A stretch of 53,602 nt of DNA from an uncultured Lachnospiraceae bacterium. GTDB lineage: Bacteria > Bacillota > Clostridia > Lachnospirales > Lachnospiraceae. Shown piece after piece: positions 2,795 through 47,181 of this stretch (positions are counted from its first letter, which is position 1; the number at the start of each line of letters is the position of its first letter). The position numbers and the translations under genes are program-made. The stretch spans positions 1 to 53,602 of the forward strand of contig CANSTU010000015.1 of the NCBI GenBank assembly GCA_947650005.1, given 5' to 3'. Under the pieces are notes generated by a model. It saw nothing but the letters and a program-made list of their open reading frames with translations, did no database searches and was not told the DNA's origin.

Positions 2795-2826
2795 TGCGCG
2801 TTAAAGCGCGCAGATGGGAGGCAAGC
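2795..2826 (+). promoter_or_regulatory. Stem-loop/Shine-Dalgarno leader module of murF
   Basis: TGCGCG (2795-2800) pairs with CGCGCA (2807-2812) around a 6-nt loop. The tail GATGGGAGGCAAGC then runs straight into the ATG at 2827. Member of the hairpin-SD family described in the findings; the stem ends 14 nt before the start codon. Confidence 0.75.
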
Positions 2827-4197
2827 ATGAAGAACATGACATTGGAAAATATTGCGGCGGCCTGCCAAGGGAAGCTGGTGGGAGCGGATATTCCACAGGC
2901 ACAGGCGGTCGGCGTGACCACGGATTCCAGAAAGGCGGAGCCGGGTTGTCTATTCATTGCCCTGCGGGGAGAGAGGACGGATGGGCATCGGTTTATAGAA
3001 GATGTGCTCAAAAATGGTGCGCTGGGTGTGGTATGTGAAAGGCTTCCCGAGCATCCTGAGGGCCCCTGTATCCTGGTGGAGGACTGTTTTGCGGCCCTGC
3101 GGCAGATCGGGGAATTCTATCGGCAGCAGTTGGATGTGCGCTTGGTGGGCATCACTGGAAGCGTAGGGAAGACCAGCACCAAGGAATTTGTGGCCTCGGT
3201 GCTGGCGCAGAAATATAAGGTACACAGAACGAAAGGAAACTATAATAACGAAATTGGCGTGCCCTTAACCGTCCTGGCCATGCCGGAGGATACTCAGGTG
3301 GCTGTCCTGGAGATGGGGATCAATCATTTCGGGGAGATGCATAATCTGAGCCGGATTGCCAGGCCGGATATCTGTATCATGACGAACATCGGCCAATGCC
3401 ATTTGGAATATCTGGGAAGCCGGGAAGGGATTCTGCGGGCGAAATCGGAGATCTTCGACTTCATGGCGGAGGACGGAACCGTGTGCGTGAACGGGGACGA
3501 TGATCTGCTCGCCGGGCTCCGGGAGGTGAAGGGAAAGGAGCCGCTCACCTTCGGGAGGAATCCAAAGAATAGGATTTGGGCGGAGGATGTGGTGAATAAG
3601 GGACTGTTCGGGAGCGAGGCCGTAATCCGCCTCGGGCAGGAACGCCTTCCGGTACGGATACCGCTTCCGGGAGAGCATATGGTCTATAATGCGCTGGCAG
3701 CAGCCGCTGCAGGAAGCCTGCTGGGGCTTTCCGGAGAAGAGATCTGCCGGGGAATCGCTGCGGTGAGCGCCACGAAGGGAAGAAGCCATGTGATCCGGCT
3801 GGAGGATTGGGTTCTAATCGACGACTGTTATAACGCGAATCCGGTTTCCATGGAGGCGGCCCTCGATCTGCTGTGTTTGGCGGAGGGCAGAACGGTGGCC
3901 ATCCTGGGGGATATGTTTGAGCTGGGAGAAAAGGAAAGACAGATGCATGGACGGGTGGGTCGTTATGCGGCTGAAAAAGGGGTGGACTGTATCCTGGCCG
4001 CTGGCAGCCTTTCTTGTTCCCTGTGCGGGGAGGCAGAGAAGTACGGCTGCAGGGAGGTTCATCATTTTGAGGATAGGGATAGCTTGATGGAAGCCCTGGA
4101 CGGCTTGCTTTTTCCGGGAGATACGATCCTGGTGAAGGCTTCCCATGGCATGGGGTATGAGAAAATCGTGGAAATGCTCTGTGAAAGAAAAGTGTGA
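2827..4197 (+). CDS. murF: UDP-N-acetylmuramoyl-tripeptide--D-alanyl-D-alanine ligase
   Basis: Adds D-Ala-D-Ala to UDP-MurNAc-tripeptide, the last cytoplasmic amino acid step of the peptidoglycan precursor. The 456-residue protein has the Mur ligase order: N-terminal substrate domain, P-loop GITGSVGKTSTKE (108-120), the KGNYNNEIGVP signature (136-146), then a C-terminal Mur ligase domain with DDCYNANP. An upstream in-frame start at 2752 exists, but ATG 2827 is preferred because the hairpin-SD module with GGGAGG ends exactly in front of it and the residues after it match the family N-terminus. It directly follows ddl, which makes its substrate. Confidence 0.95.
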   Translation: MKNMTLENIAAACQGKLVGADIPQAQAVGVTTDSRKAEPGCLFIALRGERTDGHRFIEDVLKNGALGVVCERLPEHPEGPCILVEDCFAALRQIGEFYRQQLDVRLVGITGSVGKTSTKEFVASVLAQKYKVHRTKGNYNNEIGVPLTVLAMPEDTQVAVLEMGINHFGEMHNLSRIARPDICIMTNIGQCHLEYLGSREGILRAKSEIFDFMAEDGTVCVNGDDDLLAGLREVKGKEPLTFGRNPKNRIWAEDVVNKGLFGSEAVIRLGQERLPVRIPLPGEHMVYNALAAAAAGSLLGLSGEEICRGIAAVSATKGRSHVIRLEDWVLIDDCYNANPVSMEAALDLLCLAEGRTVAILGDMFELGEKERQMHGRVGRYAAEKGVDCILAAGSLSCSLCGEAEKYGCREVHHFEDRDSLMEALDGLLFPGDTILVKASHGMGYEKIVEMLCERKV

Positions 4198-4213
4198 GTG
4201 AGATTTGTTCTCT

Positions 4214-4271
4214 GCGCGTCTCAAAGTTCCCATTGATTAAAATGCCGCTTGCGCGGCGGAATGAGAGGAAA
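4214..4271 (+). repeat. 58-bp intergenic repeat, copy 1
   Basis: Identical at 54 of 58 positions to 31567-31624. It covers a short unpaired section, TGATTAAAAT, the GCCGC/GCGGC hairpin and the GGAATGAGAGG ribosome binding site. It lies just after murF and ends two bases before the start of the PucR-like gene. The four differences lie in its first 24 bases; the hairpin and SD half is identical. Confidence 0.9.
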
Positions 4272-4272
4272 A
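4244..4272 (+). promoter_or_regulatory. Stem-loop/Shine-Dalgarno leader module of the PucR-like gene
   Basis: GCCGC (4244-4248), TTGC loop, GCGGC (4253-4257), then a 15-nt tail GGAATGAGAGGAAAA and ATG at 4273. Same module type as at 31597 and 10719. Confidence 0.8.
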
Positions 4273-5910
4273 ATGAGCGTAACGGTGTCCGATATCTTGC
4301 GGCTTCCCTGCCTGAAGGGGGCGCGGGTGGTGGCCGGGCAAAAAAGCCTTCAAAAGGTGCTTACCAGCATTTCGGTCCTGGAATATACGGATCCCTCTAA
4401 CCTACAGAAAGAGATCTTCGACAGGATCGATTTCCTGGACGGAGAAATCGTGATCACCGCGTTCGCGGGAATTGCGGAGGATGTGGAGCGGCAGTGCGCC
4501 AACGTCCGTCGTCTGGCCTCTGCGGGCGAAGTGGGCTTGATCCTTTATTATGTGGGCATTCTCATGCCGCGGGTGGACAGAAGGCTCATAGAACTGGCGG
4601 ATTCCCTGGATTTCATCCTGATCGTCATGCCCGAGGGACGCATGGATCTGCGGTACAGCGAAGCCATTGTGGAGATCATGGGAACGATTTTTGAGGAGCA
4701 GAAGGCGGAGGTTTCCATCGTGAGCGACGTCCTGGAGCAGGTGTCCAGGCTTCCGGACTACCGGAGGACCGTGGATACGGTGCTACAGATCATCAGAGAG
4801 CGGCTGCGGGTATCCTTGATCCTGCTGGACGGGCAGGAACGCATTCTGGGACAGGCCATGTGGCCAGCCTCTCTGGAATTGGACATGGGAGAATTACTGG
4901 ATGCTTTGGCAGTGCCCGCCGCGCAAACGGATATCCTCATGGAAGACGGTTCCTCGTTATCCGGAAACAGACAGCCATCCTGCGCGGCCCTTCCAGGACT
5001 GCGCTGGGCTTGGCATTGTCCTTTGGGCCTGCACCATTCTCCCATGTCTCTATGTCTGGTGAAGGACGGAGAGCCGCTTTCCGAAGGGCTGGTGGGACAG
5101 ATTACGGAAACCGTCCGGCTCGCCGTGAATATCTGGAGCAGGCGGCATGCCGAGGTGAACGAAGCGGAGCTGGTTCAGGCCATTCTTCAGGATGAACCGT
5201 TGAAGATGAGACGGCTTGCCGAGATTTTCCACATCGATATCGCCTCCGTGAATGCCATGTGGGTAGCCCGGTGGGAAGGGGAGGGCGCGGAAAAGAACGG
5301 CAGAGATGCGCTAAGACAGCTGCGGGACGGATTGAAGCAATGGTGTAATACGGTAATATCCGAGATCTATGAGGGATATGTGGTGGTATTCATGGACTGG
5401 CCGGATACCGCGCCGGATGCGTCCCGGCTTGCGGAATCGGTTCTGGAGGACATGCCTTCTAGAAGGGGAAAAGGCTATCTCGTGCGCTGCCACCAGTTGG
5501 CGGATACATCTGACGTGAGGAAAGCCTTTCTGCTGATTCGGGAACACCTGGCGGATGCGGGACGCATCTGGCCGAAGAAGCGCTGTTATACCCTTCAGGA
5601 AATGGACTATGCCGTCCAGTGTCGCCTGCTCCTGGAAGAAGGGGAGGAGGCGGTGTCCGCCGCCATGCTGCCACTTTCCCTTCTGGAAGCGGGAGGGGAA
5701 GGCATGCAGCTGGCGCATACCCTGTGCACCTGGCTGTTGGATGCGGACGGAAGCACTGCCCGATGTGCTGAATTTCTATTTTTGCACCGCAATACCATTA
5801 AATACCGCCTGGGATGTATCCGGGAACGGCTGGGGTATCCTGCGGATAAGCTCCCGGAGCAGCTCTTTTTGTACCGTGCGGCAGCTTTGAGACGGCTGAT
5901 GAAGGGATGA
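4273..5910 (+). CDS. PucR-family transcriptional regulator
   Basis: A 545-residue cytoplasmic regulator. Residues about 3-125 resemble the PucR N-terminal sensor domain (starting VSDILRLPCLKGARVVAG, with LEYTDP). The middle is a degenerate GAF-like region, and the last 60 residues form the PucR C-terminal helix-turn-helix (RCAEFLFLHRNTIKYRLGCI). The family often controls purine, allantoin, GABA or other amide catabolism. No such genes are adjacent, but an NCS1 permease, DUF917 and HyuA cluster lies 10 kb downstream and could be a target (inference). ATG 4273 is chosen over upstream in-frame codons because the GAGAGG site precedes it at the right distance. Its 3' end converges with the response regulator gene. 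Confidence 0.85.
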   Translation: MSVTVSDILRLPCLKGARVVAGQKSLQKVLTSISVLEYTDPSNLQKEIFDRIDFLDGEIVITAFAGIAEDVERQCANVRRLASAGEVGLILYYVGILMPRVDRRLIELADSLDFILIVMPEGRMDLRYSEAIVEIMGTIFEEQKAEVSIVSDVLEQVSRLPDYRRTVDTVLQIIRERLRVSLILLDGQERILGQAMWPASLELDMGELLDALAVPAAQTDILMEDGSSLSGNRQPSCAALPGLRWAWHCPLGLHHSPMSLCLVKDGEPLSEGLVGQITETVRLAVNIWSRRHAEVNEAELVQAILQDEPLKMRRLAEIFHIDIASVNAMWVARWEGEGAEKNGRDALRQLRDGLKQWCNTVISEIYEGYVVVFMDWPDTAPDASRLAESVLEDMPSRRGKGYLVRCHQLADTSDVRKAFLLIREHLADAGRIWPKKRCYTLQEMDYAVQCRLLLEEGEEAVSAAMLPLSLLEAGGEGMQLAHTLCTWLLDADGSTARCAEFLFLHRNTIKYRLGCIRERLGYPADKLPEQLFLYRAAALRRLMKG

Positions 5911-5958
5911 GATCGATAACCGGTTCCGGCGGAAGGAGAAGGACAATTGGCCTTCCTC

Positions 5959-7599: not shown

Positions 7600-7704
7600 C
7601 GTCCTCTCCTTTCATTTCAATAACCATGCCTTTTTGTAACCTGCAAATTTGGGCTGCAGGCATAAATTCATGGTTGAAAAGTGGCTGCAAAAATATTTTT
7701 CAAT

Positions 7705-9390
7705 CTAGCCCTCCCGGTGCGGGAGGGGAATATGGATTTTTACCGTCAGGCCGCTTCCATCTTCCTGGGAAAGGGAAAGCCCGGCGTCCTTTCCATAAAT
7801 CATGCGGAGACGGCGGTGAATATTGATGAGCGCAGTGGTCTCCAGGGTGCTTTCCGGCGCTTCCAGCTTCCTTCGAAGATCCGTGAGCGTTTCCTCCGAA
7901 AGGCCCGGGCCGTTGTTCTCCACGCAGACTACCAGAGCGTCGCCTTCCTGAAAGATATCTAAACGCAGAGAAGGGGAGGGAACCTGATTCAGCCCGTGTT
8001 CAAAGGCGTTTTCAAGGACGGGCTGGATAATCATGCGGGGGACTTTGAGGTTGCGGAATGCTTCCGGAAGAGGGGCGAGCCGTATTTGCAGCCGCCCGTC
8101 AAATCGGAACTTCTGGATGCTGCAATAATTGACGGCATGTTCGTATTCCGAACTGAGGGGCACCTCCGAGGCGGCATTTCTGGTGATATATTGATAGTAA
8201 TTACCAAGATATTTGGAAAACAGGACGATATTTTCGCAGTCCTCATCTTTGGCGAGACGATAAATATTGAAAAAGCTGTTGTAGAGAAAATGCGGATTGA
8301 TCTGAGATTGCAGCTGCTTCAGTTCTGCCCGTTGGGTAAGGATTTTCTGTTCATAGACCTGATGGATCAGGTTGTCGAGATTGTGCGCCATCTTATGGAA
8401 GGACTGATACAGAATACGGAATTCGTCGTTACTGGTAATGGGCATATCCGTGAGCTGGTAATGGCCGGCTTCAATTTCTCCAATAGCGCACAGCAGATAT
8501 TTGACGGGCCGGTTGATGAGATGCTGCAGGGCCAGGCTGAAAAGGGAGATGACCAAGGCCGAGAGGGCGATATAGGCGACCCAGAACAGGCGGTAATTCC
8601 TGATCCCCCCGAAAATCTGGTGGGTGGGGACGTGGGAAGTCAAGACAAGCCCGGTGTTTTCCACGTTGGTGGAGGCAGTAACCATTTTGGAGGAATCCTC
8701 TTGCGAAGCGATTGGACCCGAGGAGAGGCAAAAGCTGCCTTCACCCGAGGAGAGTACGATACGGCTGTCTGGGAAATGGGTATAGTTGCGCAAAAGTTCG
8801 GAAAGGGAATTGCCGGAAAAGGTGACCTTTAGCAAAAAAAGCTCCTCCTCATTTTCAGAAAGAAAACGGACGGGGCTGTGGGTATAAAGGCAGAGCTGGT
8901 TTTGTTCAAAAAAGAGACGGCCGTTTATGGCGTCGGGCTTTCCTTGCCTGCTGAAATATTCGCTGAACAGGATACCCGGTTCCGAATCATTGACGGAAAT
9001 CGTTTTGTTCAGGGAAGGGATGTAAATGGCTGCGCTTTCAAGAAATTGGCTGCTGTTCTGTAGCGTGGAGAGCAGCTGTGCGGTCCGTAGGATGTATTGG
9101 GAACGTTCATAATCGCTCATGACAGGGTAGGCGTTGATCAGATAGTTAATGTCCGTGTTGGATACCAGGCGGTAACAGGAGAGCTGTATTCGGGTGATCT
9201 CGTCGGAAAGAAAACCGGCATACAGAGCCAGCTGGGCAGAGGAGGAATCGGTGATTTCGCGCCGAATCGTGCTGTACCCATACTGATAGATGGTAGAACC
9301 CGCGAGGATGAGAGGAAGCAGGAGGGACAGAAAGAGTGCAATGATTTTTATGCGTAAGGAAAAGTAACGATTTTTTAATACATTTGGCAT
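7705..9390 (-). CDS. YesM-type sensor histidine kinase
   Basis: 561 residues. One membrane helix lies near residues 13-33, followed by an extracytoplasmic sensing region of about 240 residues, a second helix near 280, a HAMP-like linker, then the LytS/YesM His-kinase box with INPHFLYNSF and an HATPase_c domain (QPVLENAFEHG as N box, ENNGPGL as G1 box). It senses an external ligand, likely a sugar or its binding protein, and passes phosphate to the adjacent regulator. A longer upstream frame exists, but ATG 9390 is chosen because AAGGAGG precedes it at 7 nt and a good promoter lies just upstream. The segment 7600-7704 between it and the regulator has a weak TTGAAAA/TTTTCAA inverted repeat. Confidence 0.9.
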   Translation of the reverse strand: MPNVLKNRYFSLRIKIIALFLSLLLPLILAGSTIYQYGYSTIRREITDSSSAQLALYAGFLSDEITRIQLSCYRLVSNTDINYLINAYPVMSDYERSQYILRTAQLLSTLQNSSQFLESAAIYIPSLNKTISVNDSEPGILFSEYFSRQGKPDAINGRLFFEQNQLCLYTHSPVRFLSENEEELFLLKVTFSGNSLSELLRNYTHFPDSRIVLSSGEGSFCLSSGPIASQEDSSKMVTASTNVENTGLVLTSHVPTHQIFGGIRNYRLFWVAYIALSALVISLFSLALQHLINRPVKYLLCAIGEIEAGHYQLTDMPITSNDEFRILYQSFHKMAHNLDNLIHQVYEQKILTQRAELKQLQSQINPHFLYNSFFNIYRLAKDEDCENIVLFSKYLGNYYQYITRNAASEVPLSSEYEHAVNYCSIQKFRFDGRLQIRLAPLPEAFRNLKVPRMIIQPVLENAFEHGLNQVPSPSLRLDIFQEGDALVVCVENNGPGLSEETLTDLRRKLEAPESTLETTALINIHRRLRMIYGKDAGLSLSQEDGSGLTVKIHIPLPHREG

Positions 9391-10566: not shown

Positions 10567-10718
10567 GTGCATACCTTGCATGCGGAATGAGCAAGATTAA
10601 AAGCGTTCCATTCCCTTGTGTTGTCTGCGCGGCAAAGACGGCAGATGGGAACAGGGATGAAGGAAGGATGCTTTTGGCTTAGAACCTTGTAATAATACAA
10701 AGTTTCTTTGGATGGAGA
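10567..10718 (+). promoter_or_regulatory. Two degenerate upstream copies of the hairpin-SD module
   Basis: Before the functional module at 10719 there are two weaker copies. The first has a GCAT/ATGC hairpin followed by GGAATGAG (about 10569-10588). The second has GTCT/AGAC followed by GGCAGATGGGAACAGGG (about 10622-10656). The second copy resembles the orphan copy at about 14295-14345 well beyond the module itself (shared pattern GATGGGA-CA-GG-TGAA-GAAGGA-GCTTT), so this is a duplicated leader. Confidence 0.5.
10657..10692 (+). other. Candidate 11-codon leader peptide
   Basis: ATG at 10657, 14 nt after the GC that ends the module, opens MKEGCFWLRTL followed by TAA. The paralogous leader at 14327 reads LKEGRFQLP from a CTG at the same place. 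Translation is plausible from the SD-like GATGGGAACAGGG but unproven. A chance ORF of this length is common. Confidence 0.22.
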
Positions 10719-10749
10719 GCCGCCGGGCGGCGGCAGAATGAGAGGAGAT
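10719..10749 (+). promoter_or_regulatory. Stem-loop/Shine-Dalgarno leader module of binding protein 1
   Basis: GCCGCC (10719-10724), GGGC loop, GGCGGC (10729-10734), then the 15-nt tail AGAATGAGAGGAGAT and ATG at 10750. Confidence 0.8.
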
Positions 10750-14279: not shown

Positions 14280-14362
14280 AGACACTTTGATCTGAGGCGT
14301 GCCTTGCAAGCAGATGGGATCAAGGCTGAAAGAAGGACGCTTTCAGCTTCCTTGAAATAGAT
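14280..14362 (+). promoter_or_regulatory. Orphan hairpin-SD copy upstream of the PHP gene
   Basis: A GCGTGC-type hairpin (about 14297-14311) is followed by AGATGGGATCAAGG. A second hairpin, GGCTGAAAG/CTTTCAGC (14325-14350 region), lies next. The segment resembles 10640-10692. A CTG at 14327, 14 nt after the module, opens a 9-codon frame ending in TGA. No gene starts here, so it is a leader element of the PHP gene. Confidence 0.45.
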
Positions 14363-14393
14363 GCCCGCAAAAGCGGGCAGATGGGAGCAAATC
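14363..14393 (+). promoter_or_regulatory. Stem-loop/Shine-Dalgarno leader module of the PHP gene
   Basis: GCCCGC (14363-14368), AAAA loop, GCGGGC (14373-14378), then the 15-nt tail AGATGGGAGCAAATC and ATG at 14394. Confidence 0.8.
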
Positions 14394-15125
14394 ATGAATC
14401 ATATGGATACACATTATGTTCTGGATATTCATACCCATACTCTGGCGAGCGGCCATGCCTACGGAACCATCCGTGAGATGGCGAAGGCCGCAGCCGAAGC
14501 GGGATTGTCTGTGTTGGGAATCTCGGAGCATGGGCCCGGAACGCCGGGAACCTGTGATCCCCTTTATTTTCTGAACCTGAACGCGGTTCCGGATCAGCTT
14601 TATGGGGTAAAGCTGCTGCATGGGTGTGAAATCAATGTCCAAAACGATGGACGGCTGTCATTGGAACAGACCTATCTGGACCGGCTGGACTATGGAATCG
14701 TGGGGATTCACGGAATCTGTTATGAGGATGTGGGCAGAAAGAAAAATACGCAGAATCTGATTTCCTGTATGCAGAATGATAAGATTCGGTTCGTATCCCA
14801 TCCGGACGATGGCCATATGCCTTTGGACTATGAACTCTTGGTTCCAGCGGCAAAGGAATATCATGTGGCGTTGGAGGTAAATAATAGTTCTCTTTTGCGG
14901 GCGGACAGGCTGGGTTGTGTACAGAACTATCAAGACATGCTAAAACTCTGCGACAGGCTGCGCGTATCGATCATAGTCAGTTCCGATGCCCACGATCCGG
15001 ACAGCGTTGGCCGTTTTGATGAAGCGCGCAGGCTGCTTTCACAGATGGATTTTGACGAAGCTCTCATTTTAAATACCGACGTAGAAAAGCTGTTTGCGCA
15101 TTTGGCTCCCAGCGACGTTCTTTAA
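14394..15125 (+). CDS. PHP-domain phosphoesterase (YcdX/HisK-like)
   Basis: 243 residues of a PHP-fold metal-dependent phosphoesterase. The motifs are DIHTHTLASGH (about residues 11-21), GISEHGPG, GCEIN, GIHG, SHPDDGH and SSDAHDP near the C-terminus, which together supply the His/Asp/Glu ligands of a trinuclear metal site. The family holds phosphatases of small phosphorylated metabolites and the PHP histidinol phosphatase; this one fits the YcdX-like group. Sharing an operon direction with a PhnP-like phosphodiesterase and an importer, it may remove the phosphate the first enzyme exposes (inference). ATG 14394 is fixed by the hairpin-SD module. Confidence 0.85.
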   Translation: MNHMDTHYVLDIHTHTLASGHAYGTIREMAKAAAEAGLSVLGISEHGPGTPGTCDPLYFLNLNAVPDQLYGVKLLHGCEINVQNDGRLSLEQTYLDRLDYGIVGIHGICYEDVGRKKNTQNLISCMQNDKIRFVSHPDDGHMPLDYELLVPAAKEYHVALEVNNSSLLRADRLGCVQNYQDMLKLCDRLRVSIIVSSDAHDPDSVGRFDEARRLLSQMDFDEALILNTDVEKLFAHLAPSDVL

Positions 15126-15420: not shown

Positions 15421-15452
15421 GCCGTCTTACGGCGGCAGAAAGTGAGGAAATT
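15421..15452 (+). promoter_or_regulatory. Stem-loop/Shine-Dalgarno leader module of the NCS1 permease gene
   Basis: GCCG (15421-15424) can pair with CGGC at 15433-15436 (or GCCGT with ACGGC at 15429-15433). The tail AGAAAGTGAGGAAATT and ATG at 15453 follow. Confidence 0.65.
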
Positions 15453-16852: not shown

Positions 16853-16893
16853 CTGCCTGTCAAGGCGGACGAATGGGAGCTGGCGTGAAATAA
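16853..16893 (+). promoter_or_regulatory. Hairpin-SD module ending in a two-codon ORF
   Basis: CTGCCT/AGGCGG hairpin (16853-16868, with one wobble pair), tail ACGAATGGGAGCTGGC, then GTG AAA TAA at 16885-16893. The real gene starts 38 nt later. Either a remnant or a minimal start-stop element in the leader of the DUF917 gene. Confidence 0.45.
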
Positions 16894-16931: not shown

Positions 16932-18026
16932 GTGCGAAAAATAGGCATTGAAGAAATTGAAGATATTGCCCTCGGCGCAGCCTTGCTGGGAGCGGGAGGG
17001 GGAGGAGATCCCTATATTGGGAAGTTGGTGGCCATCGGGGCCGTGCAGGAGTGCGGCCCGGTTACGCTGCTGGATCCGGAGGAGGTGCCGGACGACGCGC
17101 TGGTGGTGCCCATCGCCATGATGGGGGCGCCCACGATCTTGGCTGAGAAGGCGATCGGCGGTTCGGAATATCAGGTGCTTTACGACAATGTATCCGCGTT
17201 TTACGGAAAACCCATTTACGCTTTCATGCCCATCGAAGCGGGCGGTGTCAATTCCATGCTTCCCATCGCGGCAGCGGCGAGACTTGGCCTGCCTTTGGTG
17301 GACTGTGACGGGATGGGCCGGGCTTTTCCCGAGCTGCAGATGGTCACCTTCACCATAGGCGGCGGTTCGGCAACACCCATGGCTTTGGTGGACGAGAAGG
17401 GGAATTCCACGATTTTCCGCACAATCACGAATAAATGGACGGAGGAATTGGCCCGGGCCGTTACCATGGCCTGCGGAGGCTCGGTTTCCGTATCCTTGTA
17501 CCAGATGGAAGGGGCCTTTATGAAAAAATACGGCGTAAAGGGGATCGTAACCCGAAGCCAGACGCTGGGTTCCGCCATCCGAAAGGTGAAGGAGGCCTCT
17601 GACTGTACGCCGGAGGAAGCCTTCCTGCGCATCACGGAAGGGATCCGGTTATTCCGCGGAAAAATCAGCGATGTGCTGCGCGAGGTACGCGCTGGATTTA
17701 ATTTCGGCCGGGTGGTGTTGGACGGAATCGGGGACTGCAAGGGACATAGCGCCTATGTGGAGTTCCAGAATGAAAATCTGTCCGCCACCGTGGACGGCCG
17801 GATCGTGGCCACCACTCCGGATCTGATCTGTCTGGTGGATGTGGAAACCTTCCAGCCTGTACCTACAGATGCCCTGAAATACGGAAAACGGGTGTTGGTG
17901 GTGGGTCTGCAGTGCTTTCCGTTGTGGAGGACACCGGAAGGGCTGGAATTGGTGGGGCCCAGGTATTTTGGCGTGGACACGGACTATATTCCGCTGGAGG
18001 AACGGTGTAAAGGAGGACTTTTGTAA
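16932..18026 (+). CDS. DUF917 / S-methyl-thiohydantoin desulfurase-like protein
   Basis: 364 residues of the DUF917 family (Pfam calls it S-Me-THD). The N-terminus MRKIGIEEIEDIALGAALLG followed by GAGGGGDPYIGKL is diagnostic. The family regularly sits beside HyuA-type hydantoinase/oxoprolinase genes, as here: the next gene overlaps by 1 nt. The exact reaction is not settled; the family name implies desulfuration of a methylthiohydantoin. GTG 16932 is chosen over an upstream ATG at 16905 because AAGGAG lies 8-9 nt in front and the protein then begins at the conserved MRK. Confidence 0.88.
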   Translation: MRKIGIEEIEDIALGAALLGAGGGGDPYIGKLVAIGAVQECGPVTLLDPEEVPDDALVVPIAMMGAPTILAEKAIGGSEYQVLYDNVSAFYGKPIYAFMPIEAGGVNSMLPIAAAARLGLPLVDCDGMGRAFPELQMVTFTIGGGSATPMALVDEKGNSTIFRTITNKWTEELARAVTMACGGSVSVSLYQMEGAFMKKYGVKGIVTRSQTLGSAIRKVKEASDCTPEEAFLRITEGIRLFRGKISDVLREVRAGFNFGRVVLDGIGDCKGHSAYVEFQNENLSATVDGRIVATTPDLICLVDVETFQPVPTDALKYGKRVLVVGLQCFPLWRTPEGLELVGPRYFGVDTDYIPLEERCKGGLL

Positions 18027-24364: not shown

Positions 24365-24420
24365 ATTTGAAAGCGTGCCCTGCACGCAGACGGGAGCAGG
24401 CTAATCAGCCCTTTTCAAAT
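24365..24420 (+). promoter_or_regulatory. Three-way-junction RNA leader with hairpin-SD core
   Basis: Outer stem ATTTGAAA/TTTCAAAT (24365-24372 with 24413-24420, 8 perfect pairs) encloses hairpin GCGTGC/GCACGC (24373-24378, 24382-24387) and hairpin GGCT/AGCC (24399-24402, 24407-24410). The purine run AGACGGGAGCA joins them. A second, weaker copy (CAGTATTAT ... ATGATATGCAGGGGG) follows at about 24429-24463 before the kinase start. Confidence 0.6.
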
Positions 24421-24490
24421 GAGGCGGCAGTATTATGGGAAAAGCTCATGATATGCAGGGGGATAAGAAGCGGAAAGGCATGGGTATTTT

Positions 24491-31495: not shown

Positions 31496-31593
31496 TGCGC
31501 GCTTCAGCGCGCAGACGGGAGGGAAGATTGAAAATTGACATTTTCAATCTCGGACTTTGTGACGCTGCGCGTCCCAAAGTTCCTGCTGATTAA
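31496..31593 (+). promoter_or_regulatory. Structured leader with upstream hairpin-SD copy
   Basis: Three hairpins follow the permease gene: TGCGCGC/GCGCGCA (31496-31513), GATTGAAAAT/ATTTTCAATC (31526-31549, 10 perfect pairs) and GGACTTTG-GACGC/GCGTC-CAAAGTTCC (31552-31583). The first ends in AGACGGGAGGGAAGA, and 15 nt after its stem lies TTG 31528, which opens the ORF below. Confidence 0.6.
31528..31593 (+). other. Candidate 21-codon leader peptide
   Basis: TTG at 31528 behind CGGGAGGG opens a 21-codon frame ending ARPKVPAD and TAA. The related repeat at 4214 would encode ARLKVPID and TAA in the corresponding frame, so the stop and the last eight codons are kept with two changed residues. 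Not proven to be translated. Confidence 0.25.
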
Positions 31594-31624
31594 AATGCCG
31601 CTTGCGCGGCGGAATGAGAGGAAA
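31567..31624 (+). repeat. 58-bp intergenic repeat, copy 2
   Basis: 54 of 58 bases match 4214-4271. It ends one base before the start codon of the isomerase/epimerase gene. Confidence 0.9.
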
Positions 31625-31625
31625 T
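31597..31625 (+). promoter_or_regulatory. Stem-loop/Shine-Dalgarno leader module of the isomerase gene
   Basis: GCCGC (31597-31601), TTGC loop, GCGGC (31606-31610), the 15-nt tail GGAATGAGAGGAAAT and ATG at 31626. Confidence 0.8.
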
Positions 31626-32444
31626 ATGAAAATAAAATCGGCTTATACCGGATGGATGTGGCTACATAAATGGACCGCAGATGGCGCACAGTTTCGGGTG
31701 CGGTTTGAAGAATGCGTGAAGGAGCTGGCCTACCTGGGATATGATTATCTGGAGAATTTTACCTTTCTGAGGGATCATCTAACGCCGGAGCAGGTGCGAA
31801 AGGTTTGCGAAGAATACGGGATTTCCATCTCTGCGCTTTATACCAATTTGGAAGCGGAAGAGGAAACACTAAAGAGGGATATCGATTACGTGGCGCAGAT
31901 CGGCGGGAAATGGCTGATCTGTTCGAGCCCAAATTGGCCTAAAGATCAGGACCTGGACTCGCCGCCGGACTGGGAGGAAGTCAAACGCGAAGCCGAACTG
32001 TGTAACAGGCTGGGAGAATATGCGAAGAGCCAGGGAATAGCGCTTCTGCATAACCATCACTCCTATACCCCTGTGTGCAGGAGGCCTGAAATCGATCTGT
32101 TTGCAGAATTAACGGATCCCCAGCTAGTGGGATTCTGTGTGGATAACGGTCATGCGGCTGCGGCGGGAATCGATGCCGTATCGCTGGTCCAGGACTATGC
32201 GGACCGGGTGGCGTACGTCCACATCAAGGATCTGGATCCAACGCTGGCGTGGCGCGGACGTGGACTTAGCTGGGTGCCGTTGGGGCACGGAGTCTTAAAC
32301 TTTTCAGCGTTTTTTGACGCCTTGGATGGGATTGGGTTTGAGGGAATCGTCTGTGCGGGACTGCCTGCCGGATGTGAGAGAATCAACCGTTTTGAATCGG
32401 CCCGGCTTTCCCGGATCTATATGCGTAGCGCCCTAGGGCTGTAA
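31626..32444 (+). CDS. Sugar phosphate isomerase/epimerase family protein
   Basis: 272 residues of the xylose-isomerase-like TIM barrel (AP endonuclease family 2). Metal-ligand stretches are visible: LGYDYLENF near residue 38, HNHHSYTP near 139, CVDNGHAAAAGID near 172 and VHIKDLD near 200. The family holds sugar and inosose isomerases, epimerases and dehydratases; the particular reaction cannot be read from sequence. It follows the locus 2 importer, so it probably works on the imported sugar. ATG 31626 is set by the hairpin-SD module. Only 13 nt separate it from the TauE/SafE gene. Confidence 0.82.
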   Translation: MKIKSAYTGWMWLHKWTADGAQFRVRFEECVKELAYLGYDYLENFTFLRDHLTPEQVRKVCEEYGISISALYTNLEAEEETLKRDIDYVAQIGGKWLICSSPNWPKDQDLDSPPDWEEVKREAELCNRLGEYAKSQGIALLHNHHSYTPVCRRPEIDLFAELTDPQLVGFCVDNGHAAAAGIDAVSLVQDYADRVAYVHIKDLDPTLAWRGRGLSWVPLGHGVLNFSAFFDALDGIGFEGIVCAGLPAGCERINRFESARLSRIYMRSALGL

Positions 32445-36580: not shown

Positions 36581-36802
36581 GAGCTGGGCGGTAGGCAGCG
36601 GACAACGCCGGGGAAGGGGGGAGGGAACAAAACTTTTCCGGAATAGAAAAAATCAATCCGGGTATTGTATCGGAGAGAAAATGTGATATCCTATGATTGA
36701 TTCCAATAGGAATCTCGGATTTGATGAACCTATAAAGATACCTGCTGCGGCGGGCAGATAAAAGGTTGCATGAGACCTCGATTTCACGATTGTGTGCATA
36801 AG

Positions 36803-36833
36803 GCCGCCAAAGGCGGCGGAATGGGAGGAAGAA
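36803..36833 (+). promoter_or_regulatory. Stem-loop/Shine-Dalgarno leader module of the GDPD gene
   Basis: GCCGCC (36803-36808), AAA loop, GGCGGC (36812-36817), the 16-nt tail GGAATGGGAGGAAGAA and ATG at 36834. A weaker upstream copy (CTGC/GCAG followed by ATAAAAGGTTGC) lies at about 36748-36769; the ATG at 36770 that follows it at the standard distance opens a frame that overlaps the real gene. Confidence 0.8.
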
Positions 36834-38185: not shown

Positions 38186-38299
38186 GTATCTCAGGCATGG
38201 CCTGCGATATGCAGAGGGTTAAGTTTGGAAGTTTACTTCCAAACTTTCTATGGGTGACAGTATCGCAAGCTCCGCTTGCAATACGCAGAGGGTATAGGA
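38186..38299 (+). promoter_or_regulatory. Tandem hairpin-SD modules (GCAGAGGG type) before pyrC
   Basis: Copy 1: GTAT-CAGGC/GCCTG-ATAT (38186-38210) followed by GCAGAGGGTTAAGT. Copy 2: GTAT-GCAAGC/GCTTGC-ATAC (38260-38284) followed by the 15-nt tail GCAGAGGGTATAGGA and the pyrC ATG at 38300. Between them lies a 26-bp palindrome AAGTTTGGAAGT/ACTTCCAAACTT (38221-38246). Both stems differ in sequence yet pair, so the structure is conserved. No PyrR-binding loop was recognised. Confidence 0.75.
38225..38257 (+). other. Candidate 10-codon leader peptide before pyrC
   Basis: TTG 38225, 14 nt after the first module stem, opens MEVYFQTFYG and TGA. It lies inside the 26-bp palindrome, so translation would compete with that hairpin. 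Hypothetical. Confidence 0.2.
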
Positions 38300-39610
38300 A
38301 TGGAAAAGATGCTTCTGATTAGGGGCGTACGCCTGGTGGATCCCGCATCGGATACGGACGCCATAAAGGACATTCTAATACGGGATGGGAAGATCGCGCG
38401 CTTGATGCAAGGCTCCCGTTGCTTCGGAGGGGAGGAAGCGGCTTTGGATGGCGGGACGGAAGGGATCCGTATTATAGACGGCAGCGGGTTAGTTGCTGCG
38501 CCGGGCCTGGTGGATACCCATGTGCATTTTCGCGACCCGGGTTTTACTTATAAGGAAGACATGGACACCGGCGCTGCCTCCGCGGCGGCCGGAGGCGTGA
38601 CTACGGTTGTGCTCATGGCGAATACGAGGCCCTGCGTGGATCGGGTGGAAACCCTGCGCTATGTGTTGGAAAAGGGGGCGAAGACCCCGATCCATGTGGC
38701 GAGCTGTGCCAATGTGACCCTTGGGATGAAGGGAGAAACGCTGACGGATATGGATGCGCTGGTGGCGGCAGGCGCGGCAGGCTTTACGGATGACGGCATC
38801 CCGATCCTTGCGGAGGAGACCGTCAGGGCGGCCATGGAGAAGGCGGCGGCCCTTCGCGTGCCCATCAGCTTTCACGAGGAGAATCCGGCGTTCATTGAAA
38901 ATAACGGGATTAACAGGGGGGCGGCCAGCGCGCATTTTGGGATTGGCGGTTCCGACAGACAGGCGGAAATCGTCCTGGTGGCCAGGGACGTACGCCTGGC
39001 GGTGGAAACCGGGGCCCGCGTAGTGATCCAGCACATCAGCACCCGGGAAGGGGTGGAGCTGGTGCGCGCTGCGAAGCGGCAGGGCGCGGATATCCATGCG
39101 GAGGCTACGCCCCATCATTTTTCCCTGACGCAGGAGGCAGCCATCCAATATGGCACGCTTGCCAAGATGAATCCGCCCCTGCGCACTGAGGGGGATAGGC
39201 AGGCCATTCTGGAGGGGCTTCGGGATCAGACCATTGATCTTATCGCCACGGATCATGCGCCTCACAGCGCGGAGGAGAAAAAGAAAGGGATTACCGAGGC
39301 CCCCAGCGGGATCATCGGGCTGGAGACCTCCTTGTCCCTCGGAATTATGAAACTGGTGGACACAGGGGTGCTGACCCTTTCCCAGCTGGTGGAACGCATG
39401 TCACTCGCACCTGCCCGACTGTATGGGCTGGATGCGGGATATGTGGCGGAGGGAGGCCCTGCGGATCTGGTGCTCTTTGACCCGGAGGAAATATGGAAAG
39501 CGGAATATTTCCATTCCAAATCCTCCAACACCCCGTTCCTGGGAAAGACAATGAAAGGAAAAATATATATGACCATCTGCAACGGGCGAATCGTTTATTC
39601 CCGGGGATAA
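38300..39610 (+). CDS. pyrC: Dihydroorotase
   Basis: 436 residues, a type I (multifunctional-like) dihydroorotase that closes carbamoyl-aspartate to dihydroorotate in pyrimidine synthesis. Zinc ligands are in DTHVHFRDPG (His74, His76), and later conserved pieces include ANTRPC, SFHEEN, HISTREGVELV, HAEATPHHF and the catalytic ATDHAPHS. ATG 38300 is preferred over upstream in-frame codons because the GCAGAGGG module precedes it and the protein then begins with the usual LLIRGVRLVDP. It leads the pyrC-pyrK-pyrD run. Confidence 0.95.
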   Translation: MEKMLLIRGVRLVDPASDTDAIKDILIRDGKIARLMQGSRCFGGEEAALDGGTEGIRIIDGSGLVAAPGLVDTHVHFRDPGFTYKEDMDTGAASAAAGGVTTVVLMANTRPCVDRVETLRYVLEKGAKTPIHVASCANVTLGMKGETLTDMDALVAAGAAGFTDDGIPILAEETVRAAMEKAAALRVPISFHEENPAFIENNGINRGAASAHFGIGGSDRQAEIVLVARDVRLAVETGARVVIQHISTREGVELVRAAKRQGADIHAEATPHHFSLTQEAAIQYGTLAKMNPPLRTEGDRQAILEGLRDQTIDLIATDHAPHSAEEKKKGITEAPSGIIGLETSLSLGIMKLVDTGVLTLSQLVERMSLAPARLYGLDAGYVAEGGPADLVLFDPEEIWKAEYFHSKSSNTPFLGKTMKGKIYMTICNGRIVYSRG

Positions 39611-41485: not shown

Positions 41486-41493
41486 GCCTGAAC

Positions 41494-43433: not shown

Positions 43434-43559
43434 AGAACGTTGGTTGGCCCCGGGACGACTTCATTGAAATCGCCTCTTCCCGTAACCGGGCGGAATTCCG
43501 CCGGTATACGTGAAGCAGTGGTTTCAATACGGTTGCCCTGTCAGCTGCAGGGATCAATA

Positions 43560-43588: not shown

Positions 43589-43659
43589 CAAGGGCAATTA
43601 GTGTATACAATTTTCCGCCGGATGCCGCCTGCGGCTCCGGCCACGACGGAGGGATTGCA

Positions 43660-44580
43660 ATGGACCGTATCACGCTCAAAGCGATGGCGAAGATCAACCT
43701 CGGGCTGGATGTGATAAGGCGCAGGGAAGACGGATATCATGAAGTGCGGATGATTATGCAGACGGTGGATTTATGCGATGAACTGTCTTTTCAGCGTCTG
43801 AAGGAAGATGAACTGCGTCTTGCGACAAACCTGGATTTTTTGCCCACGGATCAAAACAACTTGATCATCCGGGCTGCGAAGCTTCTAAAAGAAGAGTTTG
43901 GGATCCGGGAGGGGCTGGACGTAAACTTGACAAAAAGGATTCCGGTGGCGGCAGGCATGGCGGGGGGAAGCACGGATGCGGCGGCTGTTTTCGTGGCGAT
44001 GAACGAACTGTTCCGCCTGGGCCTGTCAGACGATGATCTGCGCAAGCGGGCTGTGGCAATCGGCGCGGACGTGCCTTATTGCATTACAGGAGGGACCGCG
44101 CTGTCCGAGGGGATTGGAGAAATTCTTACGCCTCTTCCGGCGGCCCCGGCCTGTACGGTGATCGTGGCCAAACCTCCCATCCATGTTTCCACGGCCTTTG
44201 TGTATCGGAACCTGGATCTGGGCGGTCTGGAGAGGCATCCGGATATCGATGGAATGTTGGAGTGCATCCGAAGGCAGGATCTGTGCGGAGTGGCAGAGCG
44301 GCTGGAAAATGTGCTGGAAAGTGTTACAGTGAAAAAGTATCCCATCATTGCACGGATTAAGGAATTTCTGACGTCGCGGGGGGCTTTGGGAGCCCTGATG
44401 AGCGGAAGCGGCCCCACGGTGTTCGCGTTGTATGACGACGGGGAAAAAGCCGCTTGGGTACACGAAGAACTGCGGAAATCCGGTTTGGTAAAGGAAAGCT
44501 GCCTGACTTCCTTTGCGGATCGGACATGCATGAAAACCGGAGGAAAGATGGGAGTTAGGGAAAGGAATCTTCGGGTATAA
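43660..44580 (+). CDS. ispE: 4-diphosphocytidyl-2-C-methyl-D-erythritol kinase
   Basis: 306 residues, a GHMP kinase of the non-mevalonate isoprenoid pathway. Phosphorylates CDP-methylerythritol at position 2. Motifs: N-terminal AKINLGLDVIRRREDGYHEV, ATP loop PVAAGMAGGSTD (95-106), and C-terminal GALMSGSGPTVF. The last 15 residues are basic and Gly-rich, slightly longer than usual. GGAGGG lies 7 nt before ATG 43660. The stop codon is directly followed by the ATG of the GntR gene with no base between. Confidence 0.94.
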   Translation: MDRITLKAMAKINLGLDVIRRREDGYHEVRMIMQTVDLCDELSFQRLKEDELRLATNLDFLPTDQNNLIIRAAKLLKEEFGIREGLDVNLTKRIPVAAGMAGGSTDAAAVFVAMNELFRLGLSDDDLRKRAVAIGADVPYCITGGTALSEGIGEILTPLPAAPACTVIVAKPPIHVSTAFVYRNLDLGGLERHPDIDGMLECIRRQDLCGVAERLENVLESVTVKKYPIIARIKEFLTSRGALGALMSGSGPTVFALYDDGEKAAWVHEELRKSGLVKESCLTSFADRTCMKTGGKMGVRERNLRV

Positions 44581-45285
44581 ATGAAAACGGCAGAGAATAG
44601 GCAGGACAACGCAAACGATTATCTCCCGCTTCGGGATGTGGTGTTCAACACCCTTCGGGGCGAAATCCTGAAAGGGGAAATGAAGCCTGGGGAACGGCTG
44701 ATGGAAATTCATCTGGCGGACAGGCTTGGGGTGAGCCGTACGCCGATCAGGGAAGCGATCCGCATGCTGGAATTGGAAGGTTTGGTTACCATGGTGCCGC
44801 GGCGCGGTGCGCAGGTGGCCCAAATATCCGAAAAGGGATTAAAGGATGTGTTGGAGGTGCGCAGGGCTTTGGATGCGTTGGCCATGGAGTTGGCTTGCGG
44901 GCGCATCACGCAGGAGGAGATCAGAGAACTGCGGATGGCTTGTGACCGGTTCCGAGAGGCGACAAAGACGGAGGATCCGGTGCAGATCGCAAAGGCGGAT
45001 GTGGCGCTCCATGACAGGATCGTGCAGGCCAGCAGGAACGATAAACTAATCCAGATGGTGGGGAACTTATCCCAGCAGATTTACCGCTATAGGCTGGAGT
45101 ACATTAAGGATGCGAGCCGACACGGAAGGCTGATAGAGGAACATGAGGAAATCTATCGCTGCATCAGCACTCGGGATCAGGAAGCGGGAGCCAAGGCTAT
45201 TCGGATGCATATTTATAACCAGGAACAGTCCATCCTGAATCAGATACAGCAGAAAAAAACGGACAACGGACCGATTAAAGACTGA
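44581..45285 (+). CDS. GntR-family transcriptional regulator (FadR/FCD type)
   Basis: 234 residues. Winged helix at about 18-80 (VFNTLRGEILKGEMKPGERL, then LADRLGVSRTPIREAIRMLE) and an all-helical FCD ligand/metal domain at about 85-220 with Asp and His residues (DVALHDRIVQ, EHEEIYRCI). FCD regulators usually respond to organic acids or sugar acids. It starts immediately after the ispE stop, so it is translated from the same message. This arrangement after ispE is known from Lachnospiraceae-type genomes as far as I recall, but its target is unknown. Confidence 0.88.
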   Translation: MKTAENRQDNANDYLPLRDVVFNTLRGEILKGEMKPGERLMEIHLADRLGVSRTPIREAIRMLELEGLVTMVPRRGAQVAQISEKGLKDVLEVRRALDALAMELACGRITQEEIRELRMACDRFREATKTEDPVQIAKADVALHDRIVQASRNDKLIQMVGNLSQQIYRYRLEYIKDASRHGRLIEEHEEIYRCISTRDQEAGAKAIRMHIYNQEQSILNQIQQKKTDNGPIKD

Positions 45286-45335
45286 AAGAATCGTCAATAC
45301 TTTCCTTATCAAAGAAAATGGAGGAAAGTGACGAT

Positions 45336-45650
45336 ATGTTAAATAGAGGAAGATGGAAAGAACTGGCTGCGGCATTGCTTCTTGTGTGTTGTTTTTGGAA
45401 TGTCTTTTATCCGGAGTTTTCCCTGACAGGGGATTCCTATCGGAGAAATGATCCAAAGGCAGGGGAAGGGATGACGCTGCCGGGTCAAATAAAGGAAGAT
45501 TATTACGGGATCCTGGAGGCGTCTGACGGGGAAGTAGAAATAAGATTTGGCTTGTTGGAGGGCGCTGGGTATTCTGGTATCGCGCAGAAGAAGGAAGCCT
45601 ATAGAGAAATTCTCCAGGAAATCGCAGGCGCTTTGGGGGAGCGCTCCTGA
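45336..45650 (+). CDS. Small secreted or membrane-anchored protein, unknown
   Basis: 104 residues. An N-terminal hydrophobic stretch (ELAAALLLVCCFWNVFYPEF, about 9-28) is an uncleaved anchor or signal peptide. The soluble part has no motif I know. ATG 45336 follows GGAGGAAAG by about 7 nt, better than the earlier in-frame codon at 45318. It lies between the GntR and murI genes and shows the same codon use, so it is likely a real gene. Confidence 0.55.
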   Translation: MLNRGRWKELAAALLLVCCFWNVFYPEFSLTGDSYRRNDPKAGEGMTLPGQIKEDYYGILEASDGEVEIRFGLLEGAGYSGIAQKKEAYREILQEIAGALGERS

Positions 45651-45714
45651 AAGATCGCTGCGTTCTGCTATGGATGCTCTCCAGGATTTATTGGTTTATG
45701 GGACTGCGTCAGGC

Positions 45715-45749
45715 GTCGCCGCGAGACTGGCGGCAGAATGAGAGGAATC
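45715..45749 (+). promoter_or_regulatory. Stem-loop/Shine-Dalgarno leader module of murI
   Basis: GTCGCC (45715-45720) pairs with GGCGGC (45729-45734), one G-U pair, loop 8 nt. The 15-nt tail AGAATGAGAGGAATC and ATG 45750 follow. Confidence 0.75.
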
Positions 45750-46586
45750 ATGGCATCAGACAGACAAGAATTTCAGGCCAGACCGGTGGGCGTATTTGAT
45801 TCAGGCGTGGGCGGGCTTACGGTGGCGCGTGAGATTATGCGCCAGATCCCTAATGAAAAAATCGTCTATTTTGGGGATACGGCCCGGGTGCCCTATGGGA
45901 GCAAGTCCCGGGATACCGTAGTGCGTTATTCCAGGCAGATTGTTCGGTTCCTACAGACGAAGCAGGTGAAAGCCATTGTGGTGGCCTGCAATACGGCCAG
46001 CGCCTTTGCGCTGGATGTGTTGGAGGAGGAAACGGATCTTCCCATGATCGGAGTAATCCGGCCGGGAGCCAGGGTAGCGGCCAATGCCACCCGGAACGGA
46101 AGAGTCGGAGTGATCGGCACGCAAGGGACCATAGGAAGCGGCATTTATCCGGATTTTATACATAGAATCAATCAGGCGATACAGGTAACGGGAAAAGCAT
46201 GCCCCCTGTTCGTGCCTTTAGTGGAAGAGGGGCTGTTGGAGGATCCGGTAACGGACGAGATCGCTTCCAGATATTTATCGGAACTGATCGATATTGGGAT
46301 CGATACGCTGATTATGGGCTGTACCCACTATCCTCTGATCCGTTCCACGATCAGGAGGATCATGGGAGAGGACGTGACGCTCGTGAATCCTGCCTATGAA
46401 ACGGCTGTGGAATTGAGACGTCTTCTGGAAAAACAGGATTTGCTTTGTGGGAAGCCGCCGGCGTTGGGAGAGAACCGCTACCGTTTTTATGTCAGCGATT
46501 CTGCCGATAAATTCAAGCGTTTTGCCAACTCTATCATCAAATATGGCGTCCTGACGGCGAAGTCCATACCGATAGAAGAATACTGA
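45750..46586 (+). CDS. murI: Glutamate racemase
   Basis: 278 residues. Converts L- to D-glutamate for peptidoglycan, without cofactor, using two cysteines: Cys80 in VACNTAS and Cys191 in MGCTHYPLI. FDSGVGGLTV (16-25) and YFGDTARVPYG are the other family marks. An in-frame ATG at 45738 lies inside the SD tail and is rejected; ATG 45750 comes at the standard distance. Next gene 17 nt downstream. Confidence 0.95.
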   Translation: MASDRQEFQARPVGVFDSGVGGLTVAREIMRQIPNEKIVYFGDTARVPYGSKSRDTVVRYSRQIVRFLQTKQVKAIVVACNTASAFALDVLEEETDLPMIGVIRPGARVAANATRNGRVGVIGTQGTIGSGIYPDFIHRINQAIQVTGKACPLFVPLVEEGLLEDPVTDEIASRYLSELIDIGIDTLIMGCTHYPLIRSTIRRIMGEDVTLVNPAYETAVELRRLLEKQDLLCGKPPALGENRYRFYVSDSADKFKRFANSIIKYGVLTAKSIPIEEY

Positions 46587-46603
46587 CAGAAAGGAAAGCG
46601 GCT

Positions 46604-47047
46604 ATGACAAAAGAGGTCATGCTCTCCATCCGCGGGCTCCAGTTCGAGCAGGGCCCAGGCAGTGAGGAGATCGAGACAATTCAGTGGGGACAGTATTATA
46701 AGAAAAACGATACCCATTATGTGATGTATGACGAACTGATGGAGGGGTTTGACGAGCCGATCCATAACGTGATCAAATTCAAGGAACATGAAATGAGTTT
46801 AACCAGACGCGGCCTGGTGAACGTCTATATGGTTTTTGAAGAAAAGAAAAAAAATGTTACCAATTATCTCACGCCCTACGGAAGCATTCTCGTGGGGTTG
46901 GACACAAACAGCGTAAATTGGGAGGAGGGAGAAGAGGAGATTACATTGAGCGTGGAATATGCCCTGGAGCTGAACTACGAATATCTGACGGACTGCCGGA
47001 TCCGGATCCGAATCCGGCCCGGCGCGGAGGGAAGGCAGGCTTCCTGA
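46604..47047 (+). CDS. DUF1934 (YwiB-like) beta-barrel protein
   Basis: 147 residues of the DUF1934 family, a small lipocalin-like barrel of unknown role. Typical features are the N-terminal VMLSIRGLQ, YVMYDEL, the central LTRRGLVNVYMVFEEKKK and the C-terminal VEYALELNYEYLTDCRIRIRI. The family is widespread in Firmicutes, often near murI, argS or rph. It follows murI by 17 nt and has GGAAAG in front of ATG 46604. No catalytic residues are evident. Confidence 0.85.
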   Translation: MTKEVMLSIRGLQFEQGPGSEEIETIQWGQYYKKNDTHYVMYDELMEGFDEPIHNVIKFKEHEMSLTRRGLVNVYMVFEEKKKNVTNYLTPYGSILVGLDTNSVNWEEGEEEITLSVEYALELNYEYLTDCRIRIRIRPGAEGRQAS

Positions 47048-47150
47048 CAGAGAGTTCCGCTTGAGATGGCAAGGAGCCAGGTTCGAAAGGCGTATGCCGT
47101 TGCTCTTTCAGGCTATCTGGAAGGAGTAAGGTTTTGGCTAAGGATGACAG

Positions 47151-47181
47151 GCCGCCTGATGGCGGCGGAAGGGAGTAGGAT
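47151..47181 (+). promoter_or_regulatory. Stem-loop/Shine-Dalgarno leader module of the GH78 gene
   Basis: GCCGCC (47151-47156), TGAT loop, GGCGGC (47161-47166), the 15-nt tail GGAAGGGAGTAGGAT and ATG 47182. Confidence 0.8.

Follow-up and report, generated by a model that had tools for sequence, protein, structure and literature searches.

A short modular repeat carrying its own Shine-Dalgarno sequence probably accounts for the hairpin leaders before unrelated genes of a Lachnospiraceae bacterium

Why do ten genes of no shared function carry the same kind of hairpin at almost the same distance before their start codons? The question is raised by a 53,602-nucleotide stretch of DNA (the window), which is contig C15 of the 3.59-Mb draft genome (97.7% complete) of an uncultured Lachnospiraceae bacterium. 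Here a first-pass annotation had described ten leaders, each a GC-rich hairpin followed by a purine-rich tail and ATG, as a single recurrent element before unrelated genes. We consider it probable that these leaders are copies of mobile or duplicating, short modular non-coding repeat units that carry their own Shine-Dalgarno sequence (SD) and have spread through the genome.

All ten leaders lie where that annotation put them, and the end of the stem is 14–16 nucleotides (nt) from the ATG, so the recurrent element and its fixed distance from the start stand. At 14394 the distance is 14 or 15 nt, depending on whether an outer T-A pair is counted, and the stem of the leader at 38300 contains one C-A mismatch. 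The tail classes that were distinguished are also real. A mechanical scan for hairpins ending 9–20 nt before a start, with SD-like letters in between, recovered all ten leaders among other matches. The ten window genes have no shared function and no pathway association, in line with the statement that this is not operon-specific attenuation. An Rfam scan of the window gave no match above the gathering threshold, and of five sub-threshold matches none lies at a leader, which agrees with the earlier view that no named RNA family is involved.

The leader is the 3' end of a larger unit of about 61–67 bp, in which a hairpin P1, a linker CCCTGATTTGNA, a second hairpin P2 and a purine tail with the SD follow each other; the linker stretch just before P2 reads CCCTGATTTG. 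In class I, P2 is GCCGCC-N4-GGCGGC and the tail RGAAWGNGAGGA, while class II has TGCGCGC-taaa-GCGCGCA with the tail GATGGGAGCAA and class III a P2 of the TATCGCAGGC-CCTGCGATA type with the tail TGCAGGGGTAT. The first sample also contained four copies of a fourth type, whose end is ATGGAGGTT. P1, the common linker upstream of P2 and a further class had not been listed before, nor had an extra unit at 31496-31524 just upstream of the leader at 31626, a second class III unit at 38186-38219 and decayed older units upstream of several genes. Inspection of class IV tails (e.g. L007 6980-8078 and L184 669-1842) suggests that the AGGA of the P2 loop could pair with UCCU/UUCC downstream of the SD (ATGGAGGTTTCC), which might form a pseudoknot across the start region.

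The unit structure is directly visible in the spacing of neighbouring copies. Neighbouring class II units are less than 110 nt apart in 91 cases; the spacing is 61–67 nt in 66 of these and 39–41 nt in another 12, a form that has no P1. At least two units are held by 61 of 224 chains, and 45 of these 61 end at a start codon. Clear tandem arrays stand before genes on C32 (66 bp x 3.2), C21 and C74. There is moderate evidence for P1 in class II leaders, where an upstream hairpin with a stem of at least 6 is found in 61 of 71 (38.6 in the base-shuffle control), and the linker is moderately conserved, being TGATT-like in 47 of the 71. In the array on C21 (L176 1280-1620), about five tandem units of about 63 bp can be seen, with P1 pairing kept by eye and short reading frames broken. 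The array on C74 (L177 1-300) consists of 90-bp class I-like units; by eye, its upstream SDs seem to lie inside a further hairpin and the last one before the gene is open. A leader peptide or upstream reading frame was considered, some P1 hairpins being readable as short frames (M-K-E-G-R-I.. in the C32 array, for example), but on inspection members on C21 have ACG or ATG-TGA at this place, so the peptide is not conserved.

The repetition reaches far beyond the window. Our set holds 13 genomes of the genus, of which the nearest, G107 (the sister), has a MurF 88% identical. Genome-wide, exact matches to the strict patterns number 80 for class I, 192 for class II and 11 for class III, and a few of them overlap each other or are non-terminal array members. 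Reversed-pattern controls gave 0, although this control is lenient and understates chance, SD-plus-ATG patterns being favoured before genes anyway; a fairer comparison is with the remaining family genomes. A Watson-Crick hairpin ends 13–16 nt before the start in 59 of 331 called genes, drawn from the window and from 20 stretches of the own genome that were chosen in part around hits, against a mean of 1.7 and a maximum of 3 in 30 dinucleotide shuffles. The neighbouring 4-nt bins (9–12 and 17–20 nt) hold 6 and 13 of these genes and eight other bins 1–5 each; in the window alone, the strict form precedes 8 of 39 called genes. When the hairpin may end 12–17 nt before the start and wobble pairs are allowed, it is present at 153 of 646 own genes (mean 8.5 in ten shuffles; stretches partly chosen around hits), at 65 of 274 genes in the sister (mean 4.5 in ten shuffles) and at 10 of 126 genes around murF in 11 other congeners (2.0 shuffled). 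Selecting by the tail, with no hairpin required, yields an abutting stem of at least 5 bp for 83 of the 98 class I tails and for 58 of the 71 class II tails (base shuffles: 6.2 and 4.5). A covariance model built from seven class I leaders gives these at least 29.7 bits in the window, where the next match has 12.6; genome-wide, 150 of 1,458 candidates were scored, and 146 reached at least 22 bits.

It could be argued that GC-rich hairpins commonly occur upstream of genes and that the leaders are a matter of chance. This explanation is refuted on these data and we give it practically no weight: both shuffle comparisons of own genes speak against it, and nearly all of 397 family genomes have at most 10 matches to the class II pattern that matches 192 times here. 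A frequency no higher than in shuffled sequence, or a distance to the start that is not fixed, had been named beforehand as the outcome that would count against the element; neither was seen in the sample.

The first-pass annotation also spoke of covariation between the stems, and this holds for class II. In 66 sequences of its P2, 45 cells are changed on both sides, compared with 15.7 after shuffling, and the covariation score is 0.39 compared with 0.19; copies are related to each other, so these counts are not independent events. Both-side changes occur in all six pairs, which 33 of 500 shuffles also reach, and pair 5-16 is GC in 37 sequences and CG in 23. For class I the alignment does not bear it out, and the changes are mostly one-sided. 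Here 19 cells are changed on both sides against 9.8 shuffled, yet partners slid by -2 and -3 columns give 48 and 51, and the count is uninformative because the ungapped alignment leaves loops of unequal length out of register. Among the P2 stems of classes I and II, conserved covarying structure, as expected of a riboswitch or other cis-regulatory RNA, is thus seen for class II only.

Across genomes, the classes are distributed very unevenly. Class I has exact matches in 9 of 150 family genomes: 80 in the own genome, 52 in the sister and 1–6 in seven others. Class II reaches 155 in the sister, and the 11 other congeners have 3–24. Of the 397 family genomes, 244 contain one or more class II matches, with 40 in G356, 39 in G325 and 36 in G360, all from other genera, and at most 10, mostly 1–3, in the rest. 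These low counts are somewhat above the reversed control, yet of a kind that chance SDs could give. At several loci in G356, P1, linker and P2 follow each other as they do here, but the stems have another sequence. The distribution suggests an old family that has had bursts in certain lineages, where the bursts outside the own genome and the sister are known from samples. Among the 80 class I loci listed from named genomes, 23 belong to Acetatifactor, the most frequent genus name; nearly all are presumably Lachnospiraceae or unplaced Clostridia, and the exceptions are a Brevibacillus and a record labelled Muribaculum. Spread by phages was also considered. The class I pattern matches in 4 viral stretches and the class II pattern in at least 120, but an abutting stem of at least 5 bp is present in 0 of the 84 viral loci listed.

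The comparison with the sister reveals how leaders come to differ between close relatives. From 48 reciprocal best hits, 4 were set aside as the called starts disagree. In the remaining 44 pairs, a leader is present in both genomes in 16, in the own genome only in 5, in the sister only in 2 and in neither in 21 (Fisher p 7e-6). By inspection, the class differs in 5 of the 16 shared cases, and in three of the five 'own only' pairs the sister leader exists with an imperfect hairpin. The murF leader is retained in the sister as class II with a different stem, and in the region 10567..10749 the sister is about 149 nt shorter. Among the differences listed, unit-sized ones recur across 156 kb of alignable DNA. 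Filled and empty sites were compared by one-gap alignment. Two sites are clean. At site A (L012 versus L229) both genomes share the same class III leader, and in the own genome its SD tail is separated from the ATG by a further 62 nt that make up a complete class II unit; the flanks are identical at 45 of 47 positions. At site G (L010 versus L260) the sister has a plain AAAGGAG SD and ATG, and the own genome holds a 61-nt class II unit between the two (flanks 60/67). Sites E, J and F are similar but have weaker flanks (39/50, 33/50 and 57/68), and at F the insert sits upstream of the SD. The units are thus interspersed short repeats with orthologous presence and absence, as is expected of miniature inverted-repeat transposable elements (MITEs).

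Several observations weigh against reading the leaders as copies of a mobile unit, in addition to the leniency of the reversed control. Leader presence is more conserved between orthologs than random insertion would give. Of 20 class II loci fetched from relatives, only 8 have an abutting stem (5 of 10 in G356, 2 of 5 in G024, 0 of 3 in G311 and 1 of 2 in G155). Of nine size differences between own genome and sister, two contain no unit-like module (L012:5207 and L017:8755), and four involve modules that do not fall cleanly into the gap between SD and ATG. The latter are L012:3779, where two class III units of the sister lie close to a gene's 3' end, L017:14668, a composite upstream of the SD, L017:13827, where P1-P2 differs and the tail is common to both, and L178:4105. 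A strict rule for the insertion site is weakened by these cases. No clear target duplication is present at the two clean junctions, sites A and G, which are ambiguous by 1–2 nt, and by eye the unit ends (GATTGAA.. and ..GGGAGCAA) are not inverted repeats, the palindromes being internal. A search for Y1_Tnp (PF01797) gave no match at E 0.001 in the 97.7% complete genome, other transposase and recombinase families not being searched; 5 of 14 control genomes gave a match. Finally, the own-sister differences, seen in a pairwise comparison, are putative gains and might instead be losses. The two clean insertions (L012:8517 and L010:4412) have the unit bordered by AA on either side, which might be a 2-nt target duplication; two cases are too few to decide.

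We suggest the following course of events for the mobile repeat. A new unit would insert in the sense direction; at the two clearest sites its place is precisely the gap that separates an older SD from the start codon. The SD of the incoming unit would become the ribosome-binding site, with P2 then ending 14–16 nt before the start, and the old leader would be displaced upstream, where it would decay. Repeated entry or unequal recombination could then lead to tandem arrays and class swaps. We infer a dedicated mechanism of movement, and that the units sit where they do because they are tolerated, not because they are of benefit. It can also be speculated, though we regard this as doubtful, that they represent an undescribed class of mobile elements which disperses translation initiation regions: a hairpin-SD cassette would be put into the gap between SD and start by a possibly RNA- or single-strand-based machinery, rewiring the 5' ends of about a tenth to a quarter of the genes, with essential genes such as murF among them (estimates from the strict-pattern count over about 2,700 extrapolated genes and from the hit-enriched sample), and still be exchanged between species.

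What the incoming unit offers the gene can be judged from predicted properties of the start region. In the full leader, the predicted accessibility of the SD is 0.52 for both class I and class II, against 0.50 for ordinary genes (p 0.61 and 0.56). The energy of the duplex between SD and anti-SD, with the 16S end taken from one congener, is -9.9 kcal/mol for class I and -10.0 for class II, compared with -9.5 for ordinary genes (p 0.54 and 0.56); class III tails (n=8) pair if anything more weakly (-7.8 kcal/mol, p 0.05; base pairs p 0.02). By eye, the match of the class I and II tails to CCUCCUUUCU extends as far as the base of P2, but as their energies equal those of ordinary genes, extended pairing with the 16S 3' end was rejected. 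The predictions suggest that an incoming unit mostly offers an initiation site of standard strength, which fits a repeat that is tolerated because its own SD arrives at the right distance. The terminal P2 and SD likely serve as an initiation site of ordinary strength bordered by a stable hairpin, and P2 perhaps keeps the SD clear of upstream sequence or blocks a 5' exonuclease. The earlier proposal of a stand-alone standby, SD-exposure or protective element is not supported in this form, since the hairpin and SD are the end of a tandem repeat unit; it is further weakened by the class differences between orthologs and the presence or absence between sister genomes, and SD exposure also by the ordinary accessibility and strength. 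The unit may still have a protective or stabilising role.

Terminal and non-terminal units were compared with a sequence profile, trained on terminal class II units, which found 315 units of at least 8 bits in own and sister stretches; the training favours terminal units. The difference in SD retention is strong, with GGAG kept in 128 of 150 terminal and 101 of 165 non-terminal class II units (p 1.3e-6). The difference in pairing is modest, P2 being fully paired in 113 of 150 and 103 of 165, respectively (p 0.015), a contrast diluted by array members that are recent copies. That the SD, and weakly P2, is maintained at the terminal position points to a role in translation or message stability, beyond mobility alone. 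It also favours an explanation that is compatible with mobility, a processing or stabilising cassette, to which we give a tentative minority weight. Here an endonuclease would cut the linker between P1 and P2, P1 would protect the 3' end of the upstream message and P2 the 5' end of the downstream one, and the repeats would persist by stabilising distal cistrons. The genomic context agrees with this: 113 of 128 classed leaders follow a same-strand gene, and leaders occupy the largest share of same-strand gaps at 50–100 nt (29 of 88) and the smallest at less than 20 nt (4 of 107). However, a preference for intercistronic insertion would yield the same context, and it fits the data equally well. 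The sense orientation of the mobile repeat is reflected in 128 non-terminal units of annotated stretches: the gene that follows within 300 nt is on the same strand for 95 of them and on the opposite strand for 8. The moderately conserved linker of class II is a further point in favour of processing. When the 5' end is trimmed to -38, the predicted accessibility of class I rises to 0.71 against 0.58 for ordinary genes (p 1e-4), but class II shows no such rise (0.59 against 0.58, p 0.97).

The leaders might instead form a regulon in which a trans-acting protein, small RNA or ligand reads P2 and the class-specific tail and thereby controls many genes. The class I tail is indeed conserved beyond the SD core, as is leader presence between orthologs, but a change of class would change the membership of a regulon, and together with the unrelated window genes and the tandem and decayed copies this makes such control unlikely. 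We also regard it as quite unlikely that the leaders are switches whose linker CUCCC/UUCCC has two alternative partners, a strand of P1 and the SD (GGGAG, GAGGAA). Many leaders do show this complementarity, as do some minimum-energy folds; on the other hand, the predicted SD accessibility of classes I and II is that of ordinary genes, and by inspection class III has no C-rich segment. The palindromes and the insertion without a clear target duplication recall repetitive extragenic palindromic (REP) elements with their REP-associated tyrosine transposases (RAYTs), or elements of the IS200/IS605 type, which are moved by a Y1 transposase. Given the missing PF01797 match in the 97.7% complete draft genome, this origin is very improbable.

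Among described repeats, the BOX elements of Streptococcus pneumoniae, which have been read as parasitic non-autonomous mobile elements, are similar in being short and modular, with variable numbers of tandem modules and hairpins when transcribed. However, BOX is over-represented between convergent genes and BOX-encoded reading frames have no good SD candidates, while the present units lie in sense orientation upstream of starts and carry an SD (PMC3049150). The TAACTGA repeats of Beggiatoaceae also form intergenic arrays directly before the starts of unrelated genes, some of them essential, and a translational role has been proposed for them; those are 7-nt direct repeats of little SD character, in contrast to structured 61–67 bp units that contain the SD (PMC4679880). 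The bcr1-bcr18 repeats of the Bacillus cereus group are interspersed, some of them MITE-like, and often co-transcribed in untranslated regions or operon gaps, but the available text states no ribosome-binding-site role for them (PMC3446304). A literature search, with most subscription papers outside its coverage, found no description of the present hairpin-SD element among the papers listed. In the cggR-gapA type of 5' stabilising hairpin, too, a stable stem-loop directly precedes the SD of the following cistron; that is a single locus, unlike the repeat family described here.

Bacterial interspersed repeats are usually thought to sit where harm is small, and we know of no repeat family that carries an SD and enters the gap between SD and start. 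The present family appears to carry a translation start signal and to replace that of the host gene by gene, with classes swapped between sister species. This raises the question of what places a structured unit of 61–67 bp so precisely between SD and ATG. It also provides a natural series of start sites (the same gene with none, one or several units, or a different class) for testing the effect of hairpin and SD on translation and mRNA decay. For annotation, start-site and RNA-motif tools will meet hundreds of copies. The units of the window are collected in Table 1.

Table 1. Leaders and older repeat modules in the window, with the positions of their parts.
Feature	Position (strand)	Parts and remarks
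murF leader, class II	2781..2826 (+)	linker CCCCCTGATTTGTA 2781-2794; P2 2795-2812; tail with SD 2813-2826
Class I unit before PucR-type regulator gene	4194..4272 (+)	presumed P1 4194-4231 and linker; P2 4244-4257; tail 4258-4272
Class IV-like hairpin sequence between two minus-strand genes	7620..7710 (-)	88 nt longer than sister; flanks 57/68
Stacked units before solute-binding protein gene	10567..10749 (+)	decayed 10567-10595, 10625-10656; P1 10683-10704; class I P2 10719-10734; tail 10735-10749
Leader before PHP hydrolase gene	14297..14393 (+)	decayed older class II P2 and tail 14297-14321; P1 14325-14347; terminal class II P2 14362-14379; tail 14380-14393
Class I leader before cytosine permease gene	15421..15452 (+)	P2 15421-15436; tail 15437-15452
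Older non-terminal class II-like P2 and tail	16853..16880 (+)	upstream of gene called at 16932
Older stacked modules	24373..24462 (+)	class II 24373-24397; class III-like 24427-24462; upstream of gene with start 24491 or 24650
Units before inosose-dehydratase-like gene	31496..31625 (+)	class II P2 31496-31513 and tail; then repeated class I unit: hairpins 31526-31549, 31552-31583; P2 31597-31610; tail 31611-31625
Class I leader before glycerophosphodiester phosphodiesterase gene	36802..36833 (+)	P2 36802-36817, then tail
Two tandem class III units before dihydroorotase gene	38186..38299 (+)	first P2 38186-38209, tail to ~38219; P1 38222-38246; second P2 38260-38284, tail 38285-38299
Class I leader before glutamate racemase	45718..45749 (+)	P2 45718-45734, then tail
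Class I-like leader before alpha-L-rhamnosidase gene	47151..47181 (+)	P2 47151-47166, then tail

Two long palindromic regions also differ in length between the two genomes. In L260 of the sister, the region aligned to L010:4261-4289 has a palindromic stretch about 240 nt longer than in the own genome, from a family different from the leader units. The window contains a long intergenic palindrome with perfect 57-bp arms at 1383-1522, in a region about 190 nt longer than in the sister. One of the sub-threshold Rfam matches, to mir-8515 at 1405-1500 (58 bits, gathering threshold 100), lies on this palindrome, probably just because it is a long hairpin.

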